Virus record (IMG/VR): IMGVR_UViG_3300043595_000071
Span: 1-29,076 of that record
From: a virus
Length of the DNA: 29,076 nt
Direction: 5' to 3' (one strand)
Shown here: one piece after another, positions 5,715 through 21,394 of the stretch
Position numbering within the stretch: the stretch's first letter is position 1
Layout of the letters: each line of letters opens with the position of its first letter
Made by a program: the position numbers and the translations under genes
The notes under the pieces: model-generated
Database searches by the model: none
What the model saw: only the letters and a program-made list of their open reading frames with translations
What the model was told of the DNA's origin: nothing

Positions 5715-5855
5715 TCAGCGATTCCTTCCGCACCGCGTGCACTTGCCCTGCACAAACCAATGCTCGCACGCATCGATACGCTCGCGACGCTGCTGCTCGA
5801 GCTGGGCAGCCACACGGTGTTGAATCGTTCCGCTTGGACGCTTGCGGATGATCAC
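5715..5855 (-). CDS. 46-residue small cysteine/histidine protein
   Basis: A short frame not found by length-based calling: GTG at 5855 shares GTGA with the stop of the HNH-like gene, and its TGA ends one base before the ATG of the LuxR-type gene. The product begins VIIRKRPSGTIQHRV, continues with a charged helix (QLEQQRRERIDA) and ends CEHWFVQGKCTRCGRNR. Cys30, His32, Cys39 and Cys42 could bind one zinc ion. Small proteins of this type are common in phage operons. Tight coupling at both ends and the cysteine pattern support a real gene; the function is unknown. Confidence 0.65.
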   Translation of the reverse strand: MIIRKRPSGTIQHRVAAQLEQQRRERIDACEHWFVQGKCTRCGRNR

Positions 5856-6544
5856 GCGACAGACCTCTGTGAGCGCCTGGTGTAATGAACTCTATTTCGA
5901 TTCTGCGTCAGCCGATCAGCCCAACGGCAGTTGCCGGGCTCGTAGTTTCCGTCGTTGTCCTTGCGATCAATTGTTGTGCCCACGGGGCGTTGGCCCATGT
6001 CGCTGATGAATACCTCGAAAGACTCCCATTGCGAGCAGACCAGAATCCCGCGACCTCCGTACCTTGGGTAAGAATGGTTTCTTGGATTACGGCATCGGCC
6101 AAGCATGCTGCACCAAGATCTGTAGGTTCCTGTTCTGTGCATGCCGTGCGTGGTCGTAATTTGCTGGCGATAGCAACCGCAAGAAGTGCATTTACCTCCA
6201 GTCAGTTGATTCCCAGTGGTCTCCATCTCGTTCCCGCAGTCGCAGCGGCACAGCCACGCAGCATTCGCTCTACCTGGAATTTTAATCGTCTGACGGATCA
6301 CGACCAGACTTCCGAATCGCTTGCCGGTTAGGTCGAGCACGATGAAGCGAGGGTTTCCTTCTTTCTTTTTACAACCGCAAGAAACCTGACGCCCATGGAC
6401 CAGGCTGCTGCCGCGAATTCTCGGCTGACTCCCGCAAGAGCATGTGCAGAGCCATGCGATCGCGTTTCCCAGATAACCATCTTTGCGGACGACCAACAGC
6501 CGCCCAATCTGTCTGCCGGTTAAATCTGGGGTTTTGTTAGCCAT
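5852..6544 (-). CDS. HNH-like homing-endonuclease family protein with two zinc modules (copy A)
   Basis: The 230-residue protein has two tandem modules of about 50 residues, each starting LTG(R/K)xxGxLxV and containing CxCxCG...SCGC (about residues 8-60 and 69-126); these look like zinc-binding DNA-contact modules. The C-terminal domain (about 135-215) has the family pattern YRSWCSMLGRC...YGGRGI.VC..W..F, then TIDRKDNDGNYEPGNCRWA, found in free-standing phage endonuclease-like genes. I infer a sequence-specific nuclease or DNA-binding role; many homologues are unnamed. The start is the ATG at 6544, which overlaps the RuvC-like stop by one base. Base composition is poorer in G+C than its neighbours, consistent with a mobile gene. 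Two other windows of this family exist at 11688 and 18569. Confidence 0.72.
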   Translation of the reverse strand: MANKTPDLTGRQIGRLLVVRKDGYLGNAIAWLCTCSCGSQPRIRGSSLVHGRQVSCGCKKKEGNPRFIVLDLTGKRFGSLVVIRQTIKIPGRANAAWLCRCDCGNEMETTGNQLTGGKCTSCGCYRQQITTTHGMHRTGTYRSWCSMLGRCRNPRNHSYPRYGGRGILVCSQWESFEVFISDMGQRPVGTTIDRKDNDGNYEPGNCRWADRLTQNRNRVHYTRRSQRSVA

Positions 6545-7059
6545 CAGGCTGCACTCCGAATGGATCTGTGCTGCAGGTACCACGCACCCAGGAGCAGCGC
6601 CTCGCCGCGATTATGATCCTTCTTGCGATCCAGCCGATCCAGCGCCGCTGGGAACAACATCCTGGCCTTGCACCTCGATGCCTCCTTGCGCACTCGCTCT
6701 CCATCATCCTTGGCGAACACCATCCCGAGTTGCCGCTTCCAAACACCAGGGCTGACGAACTCGATGCGCACGCGAACCATCTGCAAGGTGGCAAGCAGCG
6801 AGGCCAAAGTCATGCCCTGCGAGAACGCCGCGACGCTGCCGTTCTTCGGCATTGCGTGAACACGCTCGACGACCGCGGTGGTTTCGCGGCCGGCAATGTG
6901 CTGGAACAGCGCGCTCGACAGTGCTTCGGCGTCCACCCACTTCGTCGATGCGTCCTGCATGATCGGCATGTCATCGACGTGGATGAACTCGCCGGCCGCG
7001 GTCAGCAGCGACCAAGCGCCGGTAACGCCGGGATCGCATGACAGGATCAATCTCGACAT
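6544..7059 (-). CDS. RuvC-like Holliday junction resolvase
   Basis: This 171-residue protein has an RNase H-type fold pattern used to resolve recombination or replication branches before packaging. Visible acidic residues are Asp9 in LILSCDPGVTGAW, Glu65 in TAVVERVHAMP, and Asp148 and Glu153 in KKDHNRGEALLLGAWY, matching the RuvC order D-E-D/E. FSQGMTLASLLA (about 79-90) fits the conserved middle helix. Lambda's corresponding region encodes resolvase-type functions (Rap/NinG), so the position is expected. The start overlaps the preceding stop by one base (TGATG). Confidence 0.85.
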   Translation of the reverse strand: MSRLILSCDPGVTGAWSLLTAAGEFIHVDDMPIMQDASTKWVDAEALSSALFQHIAGRETTAVVERVHAMPKNGSVAAFSQGMTLASLLATLQMVRVRIEFVSPGVWKRQLGMVFAKDDGERVRKEASRCKARMLFPAALDRLDRKKDHNRGEALLLGAWYLQHRSIRSAA

Positions 7060-8111: not shown

Positions 8112-8459
8112 CTAGAACAGCGCCGGCTGCGCTGGTGATTGTGGATCGCTGTTGGAAGTCGGTGCAGCCTTGTTGTTGGAAGTCGGCTGCACGGCATTGT
8201 TGGAAAGCTGTGGCGCGACCTGGGTCGCGACCTCAGGCTGAAGTTCGCCTTGGCGTGATCGCTCGAGGTGGCGCTCGCAGAGTTGCTTGCACTTGACCAG
8301 TCCATCATCCCCGGCGCCGGCGCCGAGCTCGTAAGTGCCAGAGCGTGCGCCTGGCCGATATGCGGTGTAGTACCGCGGCTGGCCGGCGCTGTCCCACGTG
8401 ATCGCATAGCCCTCGGTGGTCACGAGGCTGTCGGCTTTGCGGTGCCAGGCGAGGCTCAT
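8112..8459 (-). CDS. Uncharacterised phage protein with Asn/Pro/Gln-rich tail
   Basis: The ATG at 8459 shares ATGA with the primase-helicase stop, giving 115 residues. The N-terminal part resembles a compact domain (SLAWHRKADSLVTTEGYAITWDSAGQPRYYTAYRPG) of a type often seen in phage replication operons, followed by CKQLCERHLERS. The C-terminal 45 residues are low-complexity, with repeated TSNN/LSNN units that produce the repeated base motif gttggaa in 8150-8205. No catalytic motif is seen. Confidence 0.65.
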   Translation of the reverse strand: MSLAWHRKADSLVTTEGYAITWDSAGQPRYYTAYRPGARSGTYELGAGAGDDGLVKCKQLCERHLERSRQGELQPEVATQVAPQLSNNAVQPTSNNKAAPTSNSDPQSPAQPALF

Positions 8460-10261
8460 GTGTGCGCCTCGTCCGCTGTGAAGCGCTGACCGTACATCCC
8501 GCCCATCTCCGACTGCTGCGGGGGCGTTGCCCAAGGATCCGAGCCCGCCTTCGGTATCTCGATGTAGTCAGCGAGAACCTTGTTGAACCTGAAGTCGGTC
8601 TGCCCAAGCTGCCCAGTCTCGCGCAGGCGAATCTTTTGCGTGTGAACCTGCACTGGAGCGTCCGGTTTGCCCTTGTCTCGATGCACGATGAGGATGTTGT
8701 CTGGCTTGTTGTACCAGTGCGCGCTGCCGCTGATGTCATAGGCGCTCGGCATCGGGTACTTGCCGTCCTTGTTGCGGTAGAGCTTCGCCGGATGCGCGAC
8801 GATCCAGATATGCAGCATCGTTTGGCGCGCGAACCTGCGCACCCGCTTCAGCGACTTACCGATGTACTCGGTCTCCGAGAGTCGCTCGGGCCGATTGGCT
8901 TCGAGCTCGTTCCAGGGATCGATGATCAGGCCCTTGATCCCATGCCGCAGCAGCAGTGCCTGGCTGATGTCGAGGATGTTGTCTAGGTTCCAATCATCCT
9001 CGTCCTCGGGCGAGATCATCGGGAAGTGCCAGCTCACCCACTCGAGCGCCTGATCCAACTGCTGCGCAGACATCCGCTCGGTCGGTCCGGTGCCGAACGG
9101 CGCGCGCATGAACTTCTGCATGAGCCGCGACGCATGCTTGCGCAACGGCGAGTTCTCGGGCGAGAACATGGGGATCACCCAGCCGTGATTCGCCGCCATG
9201 TTGACCGCGAGTGCGTCCAGGAAATTGGATTTGCCAGCGCCCGGCGTGCCGGTGATCACGGTGACTTCACCGTCCTGGACGGTGTAGTTCTCGTCCAATG
9301 TTTTCCATCCCGTCGAGGCTCCGCGGGAGTCGCCCTGCTCGTACAGCAAGTGCAGATCGCGCTTGAGTTGCCGCAGATACACCACGCCCCTGATCGGGTA
9401 TTCCTGTGCGCTCTCCAGGCAGTTGCGCAACGCGGTGGCGCCGTGCTTCACGAGCACGTCGTTGGCGTCTTTGCAGCCATCAGGCCAAGTTACTCGCCGG
9501 CACTTGCCGACACCCAGACGCCGCACGAGCTCTTGCTCCAGTCGCGTGCCAGGCGCGTCGCTATCGACGGCAATCACCCACTGTTGCACCTGGGCGAGTT
9601 GCTCCCATGCGGTGTCGATGAACGTGAACTTGCTGTCGTAGTTCTTCGCGTTGATGGCTGGCGCACCATCCGGCACCGAGATGCACGAGGCAATGCCGGC
9701 GACCTCAACGCTGAGCTTGTCGATCTCTCCCTCGACGATCACGCATCGTTGGAACTCGATGTCGTTGAGCCCGCATAGCACGCGCTCTGCGCCAGCCTCC
9801 ATGCGGAAGTTCTTGTCACGATCGCGGTACTTGACGTTGATCAAATCCTCACCGCGGTAGTACGGGAACGCGATGGCTTTGACGCGATCCTCGACCTGCG
9901 GCATGTACACCACGCGCGAGTGGATGCGGTTGCGATGCAGGATCCTCTCAGGGATGCCGCGGCCGGCGAACCACTCGAGCAGTGCAGGCTCGAGCTCATC
10001 GGGCTGGTGATGCACTTGCGGCCGCACCCAGACAGGTTTGCGCCAGTGCAGCTCGTGCCGATGAATGCCGGTGCCGAGACCGCCGGCCCATCCGCAGTGC
10101 TGGCACAGCCACGTGCCTTTCTCGACGTTGACGCCGAGGCACTTGGAGTGTTTTTTCTTGCGCTGCGCCGAGCACTCTGGGCACAGAACGTCGAGCTCGC
10201 CTGAGGGGCTCGGTACGGCGCTGCGAGGTATCTCGATGCGGAAGTCGGCGAAGGTTTTCAT
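8456..10261 (-). CDS. Phage primase-helicase (zinc finger, Toprim and RecA-like helicase)
   Basis: From the ATG at 10261, which shares ATGA with the initiator's stop, the protein has 601 residues. It combines primer synthesis and replicative DNA unwinding, like T7 gp4. Domains in order: zinc-binding primase domain with Cys27/Cys30 (CPEC) and Cys53/Cys56 (CQHC); Toprim domain with VIVEGEID (174-181, Glu178) and AVDSDAPG (231-238); KDANDVL (264-270); helicase domain with Walker A GTPGAGKS (338-345) and a Walker B-like LIIDPWNEL near 460. The following DISGSAHWYNKPDNILIVHRDK matches the later RecA-like helicase motifs. The frame extends further upstream, but those residues overlap the initiator and look non-native. 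Confidence 0.95.
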   Translation of the reverse strand: MKTFADFRIEIPRSAVPSPSGELDVLCPECSAQRKKKHSKCLGVNVEKGTWLCQHCGWAGGLGTGIHRHELHWRKPVWVRPQVHHQPDELEPALLEWFAGRGIPERILHRNRIHSRVVYMPQVEDRVKAIAFPYYRGEDLINVKYRDRDKNFRMEAGAERVLCGLNDIEFQRCVIVEGEIDKLSVEVAGIASCISVPDGAPAINAKNYDSKFTFIDTAWEQLAQVQQWVIAVDSDAPGTRLEQELVRRLGVGKCRRVTWPDGCKDANDVLVKHGATALRNCLESAQEYPIRGVVYLRQLKRDLHLLYEQGDSRGASTGWKTLDENYTVQDGEVTVITGTPGAGKSNFLDALAVNMAANHGWVIPMFSPENSPLRKHASRLMQKFMRAPFGTGPTERMSAQQLDQALEWVSWHFPMISPEDEDDWNLDNILDISQALLLRHGIKGLIIDPWNELEANRPERLSETEYIGKSLKRVRRFARQTMLHIWIVAHPAKLYRNKDGKYPMPSAYDISGSAHWYNKPDNILIVHRDKGKPDAPVQVHTQKIRLRETGQLGQTDFRFNKVLADYIEIPKAGSDPWATPPQQSEMGGMYGQRFTADEAHT

Positions 10262-11127
10262 GCTGGCACCGTCCATGGGTCTGGCTCGTGGCCCGTTCCG
10301 TTGGGGCTCTGAGGCAGCCGCGGGTACTTGCCGGCGGTCCAATGCCCAGAGTTCGCGCGCCACTGGCGCACGCAGTTCTGCCAGTGCTGATCCCAGTCCG
10401 CGTACCTGTCGCCGCGTGAGCGCCATGTGGTCTGGAACACCGCCATGGCTTCATCGACATCGACGCCAGGCAGGTTCTGCCGGGCGTACGCCGCTCGGTC
10501 CGGTGTCAGGCCGAAGTCATCCGGCAACGGGACCTTCGCTGAGCTGGGCTTCGGTTTCTTTCCGGCGGAGCCTTCGGGGGATACAGGGGGTTCTTTTTCT
10601 TTTCTTATTCCTAAGAGGTCTTGGTCTAGGTCTCCCCCCAGCGAGACGCTCTTGTCATCCGTAACGTCACGCGTAACGTTACGCTCGCGTTGACCCTTGA
10701 GACGCTCCCTGTAACGCCTCTGCCTATCGGCGCTCTTGTCCGACTTCTTACGCTTTGAAGATAGGGAGTTTTTTACGCAATAGCCGGGCAGCTTTACCCG
10801 ACTCCCATCGTCACTCGTTACGAGCCATGACGCCGGCATCACGTCACAAAAGCCATCGATGCCGACCAGAGCGTCGATTTCGGTGACGGTGCACGTTACG
10901 GTGTCATCGTCACGCACGTGCTCATCAGCGTAACGCCAAAGCGTAACGAGTGCGCCGCGTAACGCGTTACAGGCGTAACGCACAGCATCACCCTTGGACA
11001 GGTCAACGAACCCCGTCTGCCCGGTTCGAACGGATACCTGGTACCGATCGAGGAGCTTGGTGGCGGCCGTCATCAGCCGAGGGTCGTCGACCATGTCCTT
11101 GTCAAATTTGATCCAGCCGCTGCTCAT
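10258..11127 (-). CDS. Phage replication initiator-like protein
   Basis: From the ATG at 11127 the product has 289 residues. The N-terminal 110 residues (SGWIKFDKDMVDDPRLM ... LVTLWRYADEH ... EIDALVGIDGFCDVMPASWL) fit the winged-helix domain found at the start of lambda O-like and related phage replication proteins. A basic linker follows (KRKKSDKSADRQRRYRERLKGQRE), then low-complexity sequence, and a C-terminal domain (LTPDRAAYARQNLPGVDVDEAMAVFQTTWRSRGDRYADWDQHWQNCVRQW) of the type that recruits a helicase. It is immediately upstream of the primase-helicase, overlapping ATGA. The gene contains an array of short repeats likely to be the replication origin, as in lambda O. Start choice is supported by coupling to the upstream remnant. 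Confidence 0.82.
   Translation of the reverse strand: MSSGWIKFDKDMVDDPRLMTAATKLLDRYQVSVRTGQTGFVDLSKGDAVRYACNALRGALVTLWRYADEHVRDDDTVTCTVTEIDALVGIDGFCDVMPASWLVTSDDGSRVKLPGYCVKNSLSSKRKKSDKSADRQRRYRERLKGQRERNVTRDVTDDKSVSLGGDLDQDLLGIRKEKEPPVSPEGSAGKKPKPSSAKVPLPDDFGLTPDRAAYARQNLPGVDVDEAMAVFQTTWRSRGDRYADWDQHWQNCVRQWRANSGHWTAGKYPRLPQSPNGTGHEPDPWTVPA
10588..10983. repeat. Iteron-like GTAACG array with AT-rich tract; putative replication origin
   Basis: The hexamer GTAACG or its complement CGTTAC occurs eleven times: at 10661, 10673, 10677, 10711, 10816, 10894, 10930, 10943, 10959, 10965 and 10975. Several copies extend to GCGTAACG, and 10671-10684 is a perfect 14-bp palindrome (GCGTAACGTTACGC). The densest cluster is five copies in 10930-10980. 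A T-rich stretch lies beside the array at 10589-10612 (ttctttttcttttcttattc). Iterons plus an AT-rich tract inside the initiator gene is the layout of lambda ori within O. The repeats are coding on the minus strand (for example VRYA and LVTL), but this frequency is far above chance for a hexamer. Confidence 0.65.
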
Positions 11128-11554: not shown

Positions 11555-11691
11555 AGATAGAACCCCGTGCCGGACGATGAGGTACGGCAAGCACGCGAAT
11601 GTGGCTGCAACGGGAGGGGTTGCGCGGCAGTGATCTCAGCGGGTCTCAGCTGCCTGACCGTGCGCTGCTTATGCGGGGGTAAAAAGATCAT
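11551..11691 (-). CDS. Possible 46-residue small protein
   Basis: An open frame starts at ATG 11691 inside the stop of HNH-like copy B (ATGA) and ends with a TGA that overlaps the next ATG at 11554 (again ATGA). The product, MIFLPPHKQRTVRQLRPAE and onward, is proline- and arginine-rich without a recognisable motif. Overlaps at both ends match the pattern of neighbouring genes, which is the main support. Composition alone would not convince, and the frame could be fortuitous. Confidence 0.4.
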   Translation of the reverse strand: MIFLPPHKQRTVRQLRPAEITAAQPLPLQPHSRACRTSSSGTGFYL

Positions 11692-12164
11692 GCGACGTGC
11701 TTCCAAGACTTGTGGTGCGCCGCACGGCTAACGGTTGAGCGCTGAACTCCGAACTGCAGAGCCAGAGCCGATAGAGATTCCCCGGCAACAAAGCCAGAGC
11801 GGATCTGAACCACTAGCGTTTCGGTGAGTCGGGCGCTCCATACCGCAACCCCTTTCGGTCCATTGGGATTGCCCGTGCGATTGCGCGCTCGGGGGCCGGG
11901 GCGCCGATTCAGTGCCTGAGTACGTGAGTCGGCCCAGCGACAGTTCGAAGGCTCGTAGTTCCCGCAGGGATCCTTCCTATCGAGGGTGCGGCCGTGCGGA
12001 CGAGGGCCTACGTCAGATACGAACGCCCAAAAATCAGTGCGCCAGCGGTCACAGACAGACACTCCCTTCGCCCCGTACCACCGGTATTTATGATGCCCCG
12101 GGCTGTAGCATCGCTCCTTCATCGCGTACCAGGATCTGTAGAGGGGGTGCGTGCTCGCGTTCAT
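11688..12164 (-). CDS. HNH-like endonuclease family protein with C-terminal HTH (copy B)
   Basis: The 158-residue product starts with the same C-terminal domain as copy A: YRSWYAMKERCYSPGHHKYRWYG.KGVSVCDRW (about residues 9-43) and TLDRKDPCGNYEPSNCRWA (about 60-78). It has no N-terminal zinc modules. Instead the C-terminus carries a short helix-turn-helix, LSALALQFGVQRSTVSRAAHHKSW (about 130-153), which probably recognises a target site. I infer a free-standing homing-type nuclease or its degenerate relative. It lies between the tRNA region and the replication genes, in the leftward operon. Confidence 0.7.
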   Translation of the reverse strand: MNASTHPLYRSWYAMKERCYSPGHHKYRWYGAKGVSVCDRWRTDFWAFVSDVGPRPHGRTLDRKDPCGNYEPSNCRWADSRTQALNRRPGPRARNRTGNPNGPKGVAVWSARLTETLVVQIRSGFVAGESLSALALQFGVQRSTVSRAAHHKSWKHVA

Positions 12165-19871: not shown

Positions 19872-21394
19872 GCGCCATCGAATCCAATACCCGCGAGTTG
19901 CTGCCGCCAGCAGATGCGCCAGCCACGCCCGGTACCGAGCTGTCGTTACCCCAGCGCGCGCTCGCGGCGATGAAGCTAAAGGTGACGGTCGAGCAGTTGA
20001 CCGAACTCGCCGCTAAAACCGCCGATATCACGACGATCACCAACGCCGATGGCCGCACGCAAATTCACGCGGCAGCCATGGTGCTGCGCGAAGAACGGAT
20101 CGCGATCGACAAGGCAGGCATAGCCGGTCGCGACGAAGCAAACAAGTTCGCGAAGCAGGTCATCATCGAAGCCGGCAAGCTGATCAAGTTAATCAAGCCG
20201 GAAGAGGAGCGGCTGATCGCACTGCGCGACGCATGGGACACAGCAAGAGAGGCGGAGAAGTTCGCCAAGGCCGACCTCGAGCGCAAACGCAAAGAGGCGA
20301 TCCAGTCCCGCATCCAAAGCATGCGCGATCGGGTGGCCGAGGTTGCGGGCCTGGGCTCCGCTGGCGTGCAACAGGCGATCATCGAATTCACCGCGATCGT
20401 GATCGACGACAACAACTTTGCCGAACTGAAGGAGACGGCCGAGGCGGTACACCAGAATGTCCTGGCCCGCCTTCGGTCGATGCACGCGGAGTACGTCAAG
20501 CACGAAGAGGATATGGCGCGCATCAAGGCCGAACAGGAGCGGCGCGCGGCGGAGCTCGAAGCCGAGAAGGTCCGCCAGCGCAAGGAGCGCGAACTCGATA
20601 AAGCCCGTATGGCGGCGATATCAGCCATCAACCGGCTGCCCCTGGTCGCCACCACCGGCCGCAATCCCGATCGCAAGGCCGGTACGCGCGAGTGCATCGC
20701 CGACACCCTCGACGAGGCGCGCAACTTCGAGGTGAGCGAGGCCGACTTCGGCACGCTGCTCGATGCGGCAACCGAAGCCAAGCGCGCCGCCGTCGAGCAG
20801 ATCGAGCACGTCCTGCAGCGCTTCGACGATCGCGAACGCCAGCAGGCCGAGCATCAGCGTCTCGATGCCGAGCGGGCAGCCGCCCAGGCCGAACACGCGC
20901 GTATCGCCGCCGAGAACGCGCGCCAGGCCGAGGAGCTGCGCCGGCAACAGGAGTCCCTCGAGCAGCAGCGGCGCGACCAGGAAGCGGCTGCCCAGGCCGA
21001 GCGCGATCGGTTGGCCGATGAGCAGCGCAAGATCGAAGCCGATCGGCAGCAGGTCGCACTGCTGCAGGCATCGCTCGCCGCCCAGTCTGGACCGTCGCCG
21101 CAGGCCGGGCCTCCAACGGAACCCCAGCCCGAACCGAGCACCACCATCGAGCCTCCCATTGCGGACGTTTGTGGAGAGGTCCCCTGCAAGCTCTGCAGCA
21201 CGCCCACCCGCGCCCTGCACACGCTGCTGTGTGATGGCTGCTACGACCTCAGCAAGCACATCACGGTAGCGACCGCAGTCTCGGCGATCACGCTTGGCTG
21301 CGAGGCGCTCGGCATTGCCGATCGAGCAGTGAGCATGCTCAAGGCGGCCCGCAAGGCTCGGGCGCAGTTGCAGTCGCAGGCAGGTGCGGCATGA
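19868..21394 (+). CDS. Long coiled-coil phage protein with C-terminal zinc-knuckle
   Basis: The 508-residue product is dominated by heptad-like charged helices, about residues 115-260 and 300-400 (KEAIQSRIQSMRDRVAEV; EHARIAAENARQAEELRRQQ). Between them lies a compact part (RLPLVATTGRNPDRKAGTRECIADTLDEARNFEV). A proline-rich linker near 410-430 is followed by CGEVPCKLCS...LLCDGC, a likely four-cysteine zinc site. Such proteins, resembling phage DUF1351-like coiled-coil proteins, are often encoded by recombination genes. It may bind DNA or bridge proteins. It is coupled by ATGA on both sides. Confidence 0.75.
   Translation: MSAIESNTRELLPPADAPATPGTELSLPQRALAAMKLKVTVEQLTELAAKTADITTITNADGRTQIHAAAMVLREERIAIDKAGIAGRDEANKFAKQVIIEAGKLIKLIKPEEERLIALRDAWDTAREAEKFAKADLERKRKEAIQSRIQSMRDRVAEVAGLGSAGVQQAIIEFTAIVIDDNNFAELKETAEAVHQNVLARLRSMHAEYVKHEEDMARIKAEQERRAAELEAEKVRQRKERELDKARMAAISAINRLPLVATTGRNPDRKAGTRECIADTLDEARNFEVSEADFGTLLDAATEAKRAAVEQIEHVLQRFDDRERQQAEHQRLDAERAAAQAEHARIAAENARQAEELRRQQESLEQQRRDQEAAAQAERDRLADEQRKIEADRQQVALLQASLAAQSGPSPQAGPPTEPQPEPSTTIEPPIADVCGEVPCKLCSTPTRALHTLLCDGCYDLSKHITVATAVSAITLGCEALGIADRAVSMLKAARKARAQLQSQAGAA

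Follow-up and report, generated by a model that had tools for sequence, protein, structure and literature searches.

A probable replication origin built of GTAACG words inside the initiator gene of a temperate phage

Eleven copies of the hexamer GTAACG lie within 320 bp of each other inside a phage gene for a putative replication initiator, which raises the question of whether this array is the place where the phage starts to copy its DNA. To our knowledge, few origins have been mapped in temperate phages other than those that follow the lambda and P22 models. The window analyzed here is the whole of record IMGVR_UViG_3300043595_000071 (29,076 bp). Genes for an integrase, a GpA-type terminase and an exonuclease led us to assign it to a temperate phage, whole or partial; a DNA methyltransferase is also among its phage genes. 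In our judgment it is highly probable (about 85%) that the array, lying as it does within the initiator gene, is the replication origin of the phage. The GC skew of the record gave no clear origin signal.

The GTAACG array and the gene that carries it

GTAACG was found 19 times on the two strands of the record, as compared to 6.1 copies expected and 13 at most in dinucleotide shuffles. Eleven of these copies were confined to positions 10661-10980, and the remaining 28.7 kb held only eight, so the word is not equally frequent elsewhere. At the rate found in the rest of the record, 0.09 copies per 325 bp would be expected. The record was also shuffled 200 times with its dinucleotides kept; a stretch of 325 bp then held at most three copies of GTAACG, and at most ten of any hexamer. 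The first-pass annotation, made from the letters of the sequence, had called eleven copies in either orientation far beyond chance, and these counts bear it out. Another word, GATCGC, occurs seven times within about 300 bp at 20098-20398, but it is a frequent word, with 70 copies in the whole record.

The copies fall into two clusters separated by about 215 bp, with a lone minus-strand word between them (10816-10821). Cluster 1 (10894-10980) consists of words starting at 10894 (minus strand), 10930, 10943, 10959, 10965 (minus strand) and 10975, which include the five-copy group at 10930-10980 noted before and are encoded as RYA, CNA, ALR, LVTL, WRYA and TVT, in three frames. It contains the convergent pair GTAACGCGTTAC (10959-10970), 7 bp apart. 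Cluster 2 (10661-10716; words at 10661, 10673, 10677 on the minus strand, and 10711) is situated in the inter-domain linker, about 410-465 bp into the gene, and holds the perfect 14-bp palindrome GCGTAACGTTACGC (10671-10684), also described earlier, which is made of two iterons that converge and overlap, 5 bp apart. The spacings between sites (9, 7, 16, 13 and 33, 5, 12 bp) are irregular; in particular, the 9, 7, 16 and 13 bp steps give no evident regular protein lattice, which we count against the origin reading.

The gene itself (P0001, 289 aa) runs on the minus strand at 10258-11127, with its ATG at 11127-11125. Its product matched phrog_2509 (replication initiation protein) with E=1e-16 over residues 56-262, and phrog_1408 and phrog_9474 more weakly. 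For P0001 alone no Pfam match was obtained, and a search of the phage collection with it at E 1e-3 returned none; the P0002 search of that collection returned 107 records. The search of plasmids gave no match, and none was confirmed in genome contigs. According to AlphaFold2 (AF2) models, the protein is composed of an N-terminal winged-helix-like domain (residues ~1-155; pLDDT 89 when modelled alone), a linker of low confidence and a helical C-terminal domain (~205-260). Relatives align with P0001 from MSSGWIKFDKDM onward. The best fold matches of the N-terminal domain, weak ones, were the N-terminal domains of staphylococcal plasmid RepA proteins (4pql, 5kbj and 4pt7; Z 5.1-5.2 over 77-78 residues), one RepA structure being bound to DNA, and these rows were level with CRP-type winged helices. 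Foldseek gave no significant match (no E below 0.001) for the full P0001 model or for the N-terminal domain. The family profile matched DnaT chains with E 4e-4, and the C-terminal domain model (residues 195-264) matched DnaT 4ou6 with Z 5.4 and rmsd 4.7.

The adjoining downstream gene (8456-10426, minus strand) encodes a primase-helicase with a Toprim and a DnaB C-terminal domain (phrog_239, E=1e-80; PF03796 and PF13155), and its mechanically called ORF begins within the final part of the initiator gene. No DnaB_C turned up in the record of the relative L003, and the helicase neighbor is thus not conserved there. Two HNH endonuclease genes with related profiles lie on either side of the replication region, at 5852-6583 and 11688-12164 (-); these are possibly homing endonucleases.

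Selection on the DNA and conservation of the word

A cluster of words inside a gene could be a by-product of peptides rich in VT, RY and NA that are written with biased codons. VT or RY is indeed encoded by several of the words, and permutation of synonymous codons within the gene already raised the expectation to a mean of 3.5 copies. Nevertheless, the 11 copies observed were more than in any of 1000 such trials (maximum 9) or of 5000 recodings of the same protein with the codon usage of the phage (mean 1.2, maximum 7), and the words are found in every reading frame and on either strand. L003, whose protein is 42% identical to that of the window in the alignment, carries nine GTAACG words at the same two places, cluster 1 having its counterpart at gene positions 163-233, and also a tight convergent pair (8 bp apart). 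Some of the words at matching places are shifted against the codon frame: GCG TTA CGC (ALR) in the window corresponds to GCC GTT ACC (AVT) in L003, and CTC GTT ACG CTT (LVTL) to GCG TTA CTA (ALL). In the relatives as well, the words occupied three frames and both orientations, with different residues at matching places, and second clusters were present. As the frame in which the words are written differs between the window and its relatives, selection acts on the DNA and not on the peptide. A protein by-product as the full explanation is refuted by the shuffles, the recodings and the frame changes across relatives, and we give it hardly any credence.

To follow the word through the family, we scanned viral contigs with five diverged initiators, which yielded at least 568 relatives, and 80 of these were retained. 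Adding the window, L003 and named phages gave a set of 85 genes, with 27 representatives less than 80% identical to one another. These representatives contained 158 GTAACG words as compared to 35 expected from synonymous shuffles (4.5-fold), and all except one had at least four (26/27); GCGTTA/TAACGC and GGTAAC were the other leading iteron words. The density was 7.26 per kb inside the initiator genes and 0.29 per kb in 206 kb of flanks, and the iteron consensus in 25 relatives was (G)GTAACGC(T).

In the GDWIKFE relatives the words form a regular lattice of two clusters, with same-strand spacings of mostly 11-12 bp and convergent spacings of mostly 14 or 25 bp. This lattice, including a GTAACG at gene position 148, is the trait of one subgroup and does not define the protein family. 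The window lacks it, as its spacings given above show, and L003 (8, 11, 17 and 34 bp) is likewise off the lattice. The first-pass annotation had pointed to a short unit in mixed orientation and suggested that the binding mode could be new. The hexamer does occur in both orientations, but mixed orientation is the norm of the whole family; the geometry of the window is the variant, and what is unusual in it is the tight convergent pairs, 5-7 bp apart as opposed to 14 or 25 bp in GDWIKFE relatives.

The repeat beside cluster 2 and the link of the word to the N-terminal domain

Directly after cluster 2, the coding strand carries three AGACCN units (GGTCTT GGTCTA GGTCT on the plus strand; 10617-10633), the sole site in the record with three units of this type at 6-bp steps. 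It is followed by the A-rich purine tract AATAAGAAAAGAAAAAGAAC (10588-10612, coding strand). The tract had been noted before as a T-rich stretch beside the array; with 70% AT in 30 bp of a record of 62% GC, it ranks 21st among 29,047 windows of the record. Since the gene is on the minus strand, the tract lies downstream of the iterons in the direction of the gene, as in lambda, and it is the presumed melting site.

In the window the repeat and tract alone were not above synonymous shuffles, and their support comes from the alignment across phages. In the window, L003, L096-L099 and L102 the repeat consists of NAGACN or NAGAGN units in steps of 6 bp and an A-rich tract comes next, and in the alignment of these seven three AGA at 6-bp steps are invariant. 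L100, L101 and L103 have AGACC at period 5, and L105, L106 and L175 have ACCGGT. Most GDWIKFE relatives show a GAGAA repeat within about 10 bp after cluster 2, with a period of 5, which is not a codon multiple. The A-rich tract of lambda (L209:610-665), ACTATTACAAAAGAAAAAAGAAAAGATTATT, resembles the TTACAAAA...AAGAAAAGAAA tract that follows cluster 2 in L003, L096 and L102. At the origins served by DnaA, DnaD and RctB, strand-specific short repeats are bound as single strands (PMC10797057, PMC10201434).

The search with the L003 protein drew in genes sharing both domains or only the C-terminal one, which allowed the word to be set against the N-terminal domain. All 13 genes with the N-terminal domain had at least four GT[A/C]ACG words, and 96/102 genes without it had fewer than three GTAACG, most C-domain-only genes having none (Fisher 6e-13, a value that ignores kinship, is based on cut-offs slightly different on the two sides and includes L003 as L095). 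Six genes without an N-domain match (L109, L110, L113, L132, L134 and L153) are exceptions, with four or five GTAACG; the proteins of L109, L132 and L153 start with an xxWFRxYxxxxxDPK-like sequence and are perhaps remote relatives of the N-terminal domain. Four genes whose products are similar in the C-terminal part, from Paracoccus Pkon1 (L009), Microbacterium Gingerbug (L012), Pam5 (L013) and Pseudomonas BR233a (L014), were set aside and served as negative controls; they have other N-terminal domains and other words. Clustered words were seen in these other initiator types too (AGGTCA six times in Gingerbug, GGGTCA/GACCCC seven times in Pam5, CAGGGA and GGGACA six times in BR233a), and the word clusters in the four genes are perhaps further in-gene origins.

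The word also changes with the domain. L103, L105, L106 and L175, which have divergent N-terminal domains, contain 9-15 GTCACG words and only 0-2 GTAACG, and L103 has the C-terminal domain and the downstream repeat in common with L100 and L101, but a different word. The initiator gene of Salmonella phage epsilon15 (L208:1501-2178) has no GTAACG and eight GCGGAC, with the usual AGAGAAGAGAAGA purine repeat kept; it is probably another word switch. A word that tracks the N-terminal domain and changes with it is the pattern expected if this domain reads the word.

These results bear on two other functions that the array might have. The words could be operators, through which the N-terminal domain or another repressor controls transcription of the replication operon and which take no direct part in opening the DNA. 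The resemblance of the N-terminal domain to CRP-family winged-helix regulators, which is about as good as that to plasmid initiators, speaks for such a role, and iteron plasmid initiators often autoregulate. On the other hand, the sites extend over 320 bp inside the coding region, no cluster is found upstream of the gene, and in the relatives cluster 2 is followed by the repeat and the A-rich tract; we therefore consider operators unlikely. Alternatively, the cluster could serve as a centromere-like partition site, a recombination or packaging site, or in methylation-based regulation. Partition, recombination and packaging sites also have clustered short words in mixed orientation, and the phage encodes a DNA methyltransferase. 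Yet a methylase or a packaging enzyme would not explain why the word tracks the N-terminal domain and switches with it (GTCACG; GCGGAC in epsilon15), and this makes such a function even less probable than operators.

Comparison with known origins and a working model

As far as sequence allows, the proposal of the first-pass annotation that the origin lies inside the initiator gene is supported by the match to phrog_2509, by a word that is conserved and linked to the N-terminal domain, and by the lambda-like placing of the AT-rich tract. The putative origin in the window has the general plan of ori-lambda, with iterons inside the gene of the initiator and an A-rich tract after them (PMC7466680), as had been claimed, and by this analogy it probably works like that of lambda. 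The iterons of lambda are, however, four 18-bp interrupted palindromes in one direction, in contrast to eleven hexamers in both directions and two clusters, and lambda relies on P and the host helicase where this phage has its own primase-helicase. The earlier description of the initiator as O-like therefore fits its position and layout, but does not extend to its descent: P0001 does not match phrog_277, to which lambda O belongs, and alignment A6 of the N-terminal domain gave a probability of 0.1% against lambda O in hhalign, a comparison of sequences only that leaves room for remote homology. Our best reading is that the initiator belongs to the YdaU/Rac family, not to the lambda O family, and that the layout of the origin is lambda-like.

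The ydaU gene of the Rac prophage of E. coli (L207:1228-2016) matched phrog_2509 with E=9e-89. Its GTAACG words, at gene positions 148+, 160+, 174-, 367+, 381- and 404-, have the usual spacing of the family and are followed by AGAGGAAGAGGAAGAGGAAGATATAAATA. An origin of Rac, oriJ, is active in experiments (PMC3945230), and from the words and the purine tract we infer that it lies within ydaU, a candidate gene for its initiator. Rac and the other phrog_2509 initiators share with the window a homologous N-terminal domain, GTAACG in both orientations in two in-gene clusters, and a purine-rich repeat directly after cluster 2. The window differs from them in several respects: its protein is only 19-27% identical to aligned GDWIKFE members and has about 20 extra residues inserted ahead of the long helix; its gene carries 11 sites as against 3-8, at different spacing; its repeats are AGACCN rather than GAGAA; and the neighboring gene encodes a primase-helicase rather than a DnaC-like loader.

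Iteron plasmid initiators (RepA of staphylococcal multiresistance plasmids, RepE and TrfA) have a winged-helix N-terminal domain that resembles that of the window in a weak match, and no sequence similarity of the window protein to them was found. The origins of iteron plasmids combine iterons with a DNA-unwinding element that contains repeats (PMC10797057). One-strand short repeats beside double-strand binding sites are likewise a feature of the DnaA-trio, the DnaD recognition element and (G/A)ATCA of Vibrio cholerae ori2 (PMC10797057, PMC10201434); their words differ from the AGACC and GAGAA repeats.

A working model can be drawn in which the clusters, their selection as DNA, their conservation and their tie to the N-terminal domain are results of the computation, and binding by the N-terminal domain, melting, helicase recruitment and the order of the steps are all deduced. 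The winged-helix-like domain would bind GTAACG on either strand in the two clusters. The initiator bound at both clusters would then assemble and strain the DNA beside cluster 2, where the strand-specific repeat and the A-rich tract would open. The C-terminal domain, on its flexible linker, may assist in holding the opened strand and in recruiting the primase-helicase of the phage encoded by the next gene.

A more general possibility, which we put forward tentatively and at somewhat less than even odds, is that this is a large family of phage origins with two separately evolving DNA codes in the initiator gene. One would be the word of the N-terminal domain, used in both orientations and switching on divergence (GTAACG, GTCACG, GCGGAC); the other would be the 5-6-bp repeat, specific to one strand, that comes right behind the word (GAGAA, AGACC, TAGACC, ACCGGT) and, in the manner of the DnaA-trio, is read once the DNA has melted. 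If this is true, origin DNA would have given rise to linker peptides such as REEKRREEKRRE or DLDQDL as a by-product. In the searchable open-licence literature we found no description of GTAACG iterons, GGTAACGC, GAGAA/AGACC repeats or in-gene origins of such phages, which is weak evidence; the combination of an iteron word that is conserved yet switchable and a distinct strand-specific repeat, found across this initiator family, appears to be undescribed in that literature. For Rac, the comparison suggests YdaU, a protein without an assigned function, as the initiator of oriJ. As the word recurs in dozens of diverged initiators, the origin may be located from sequence alone in this family, and the natural word switches would be ready-made experiments on the coevolution of initiators and their sites.
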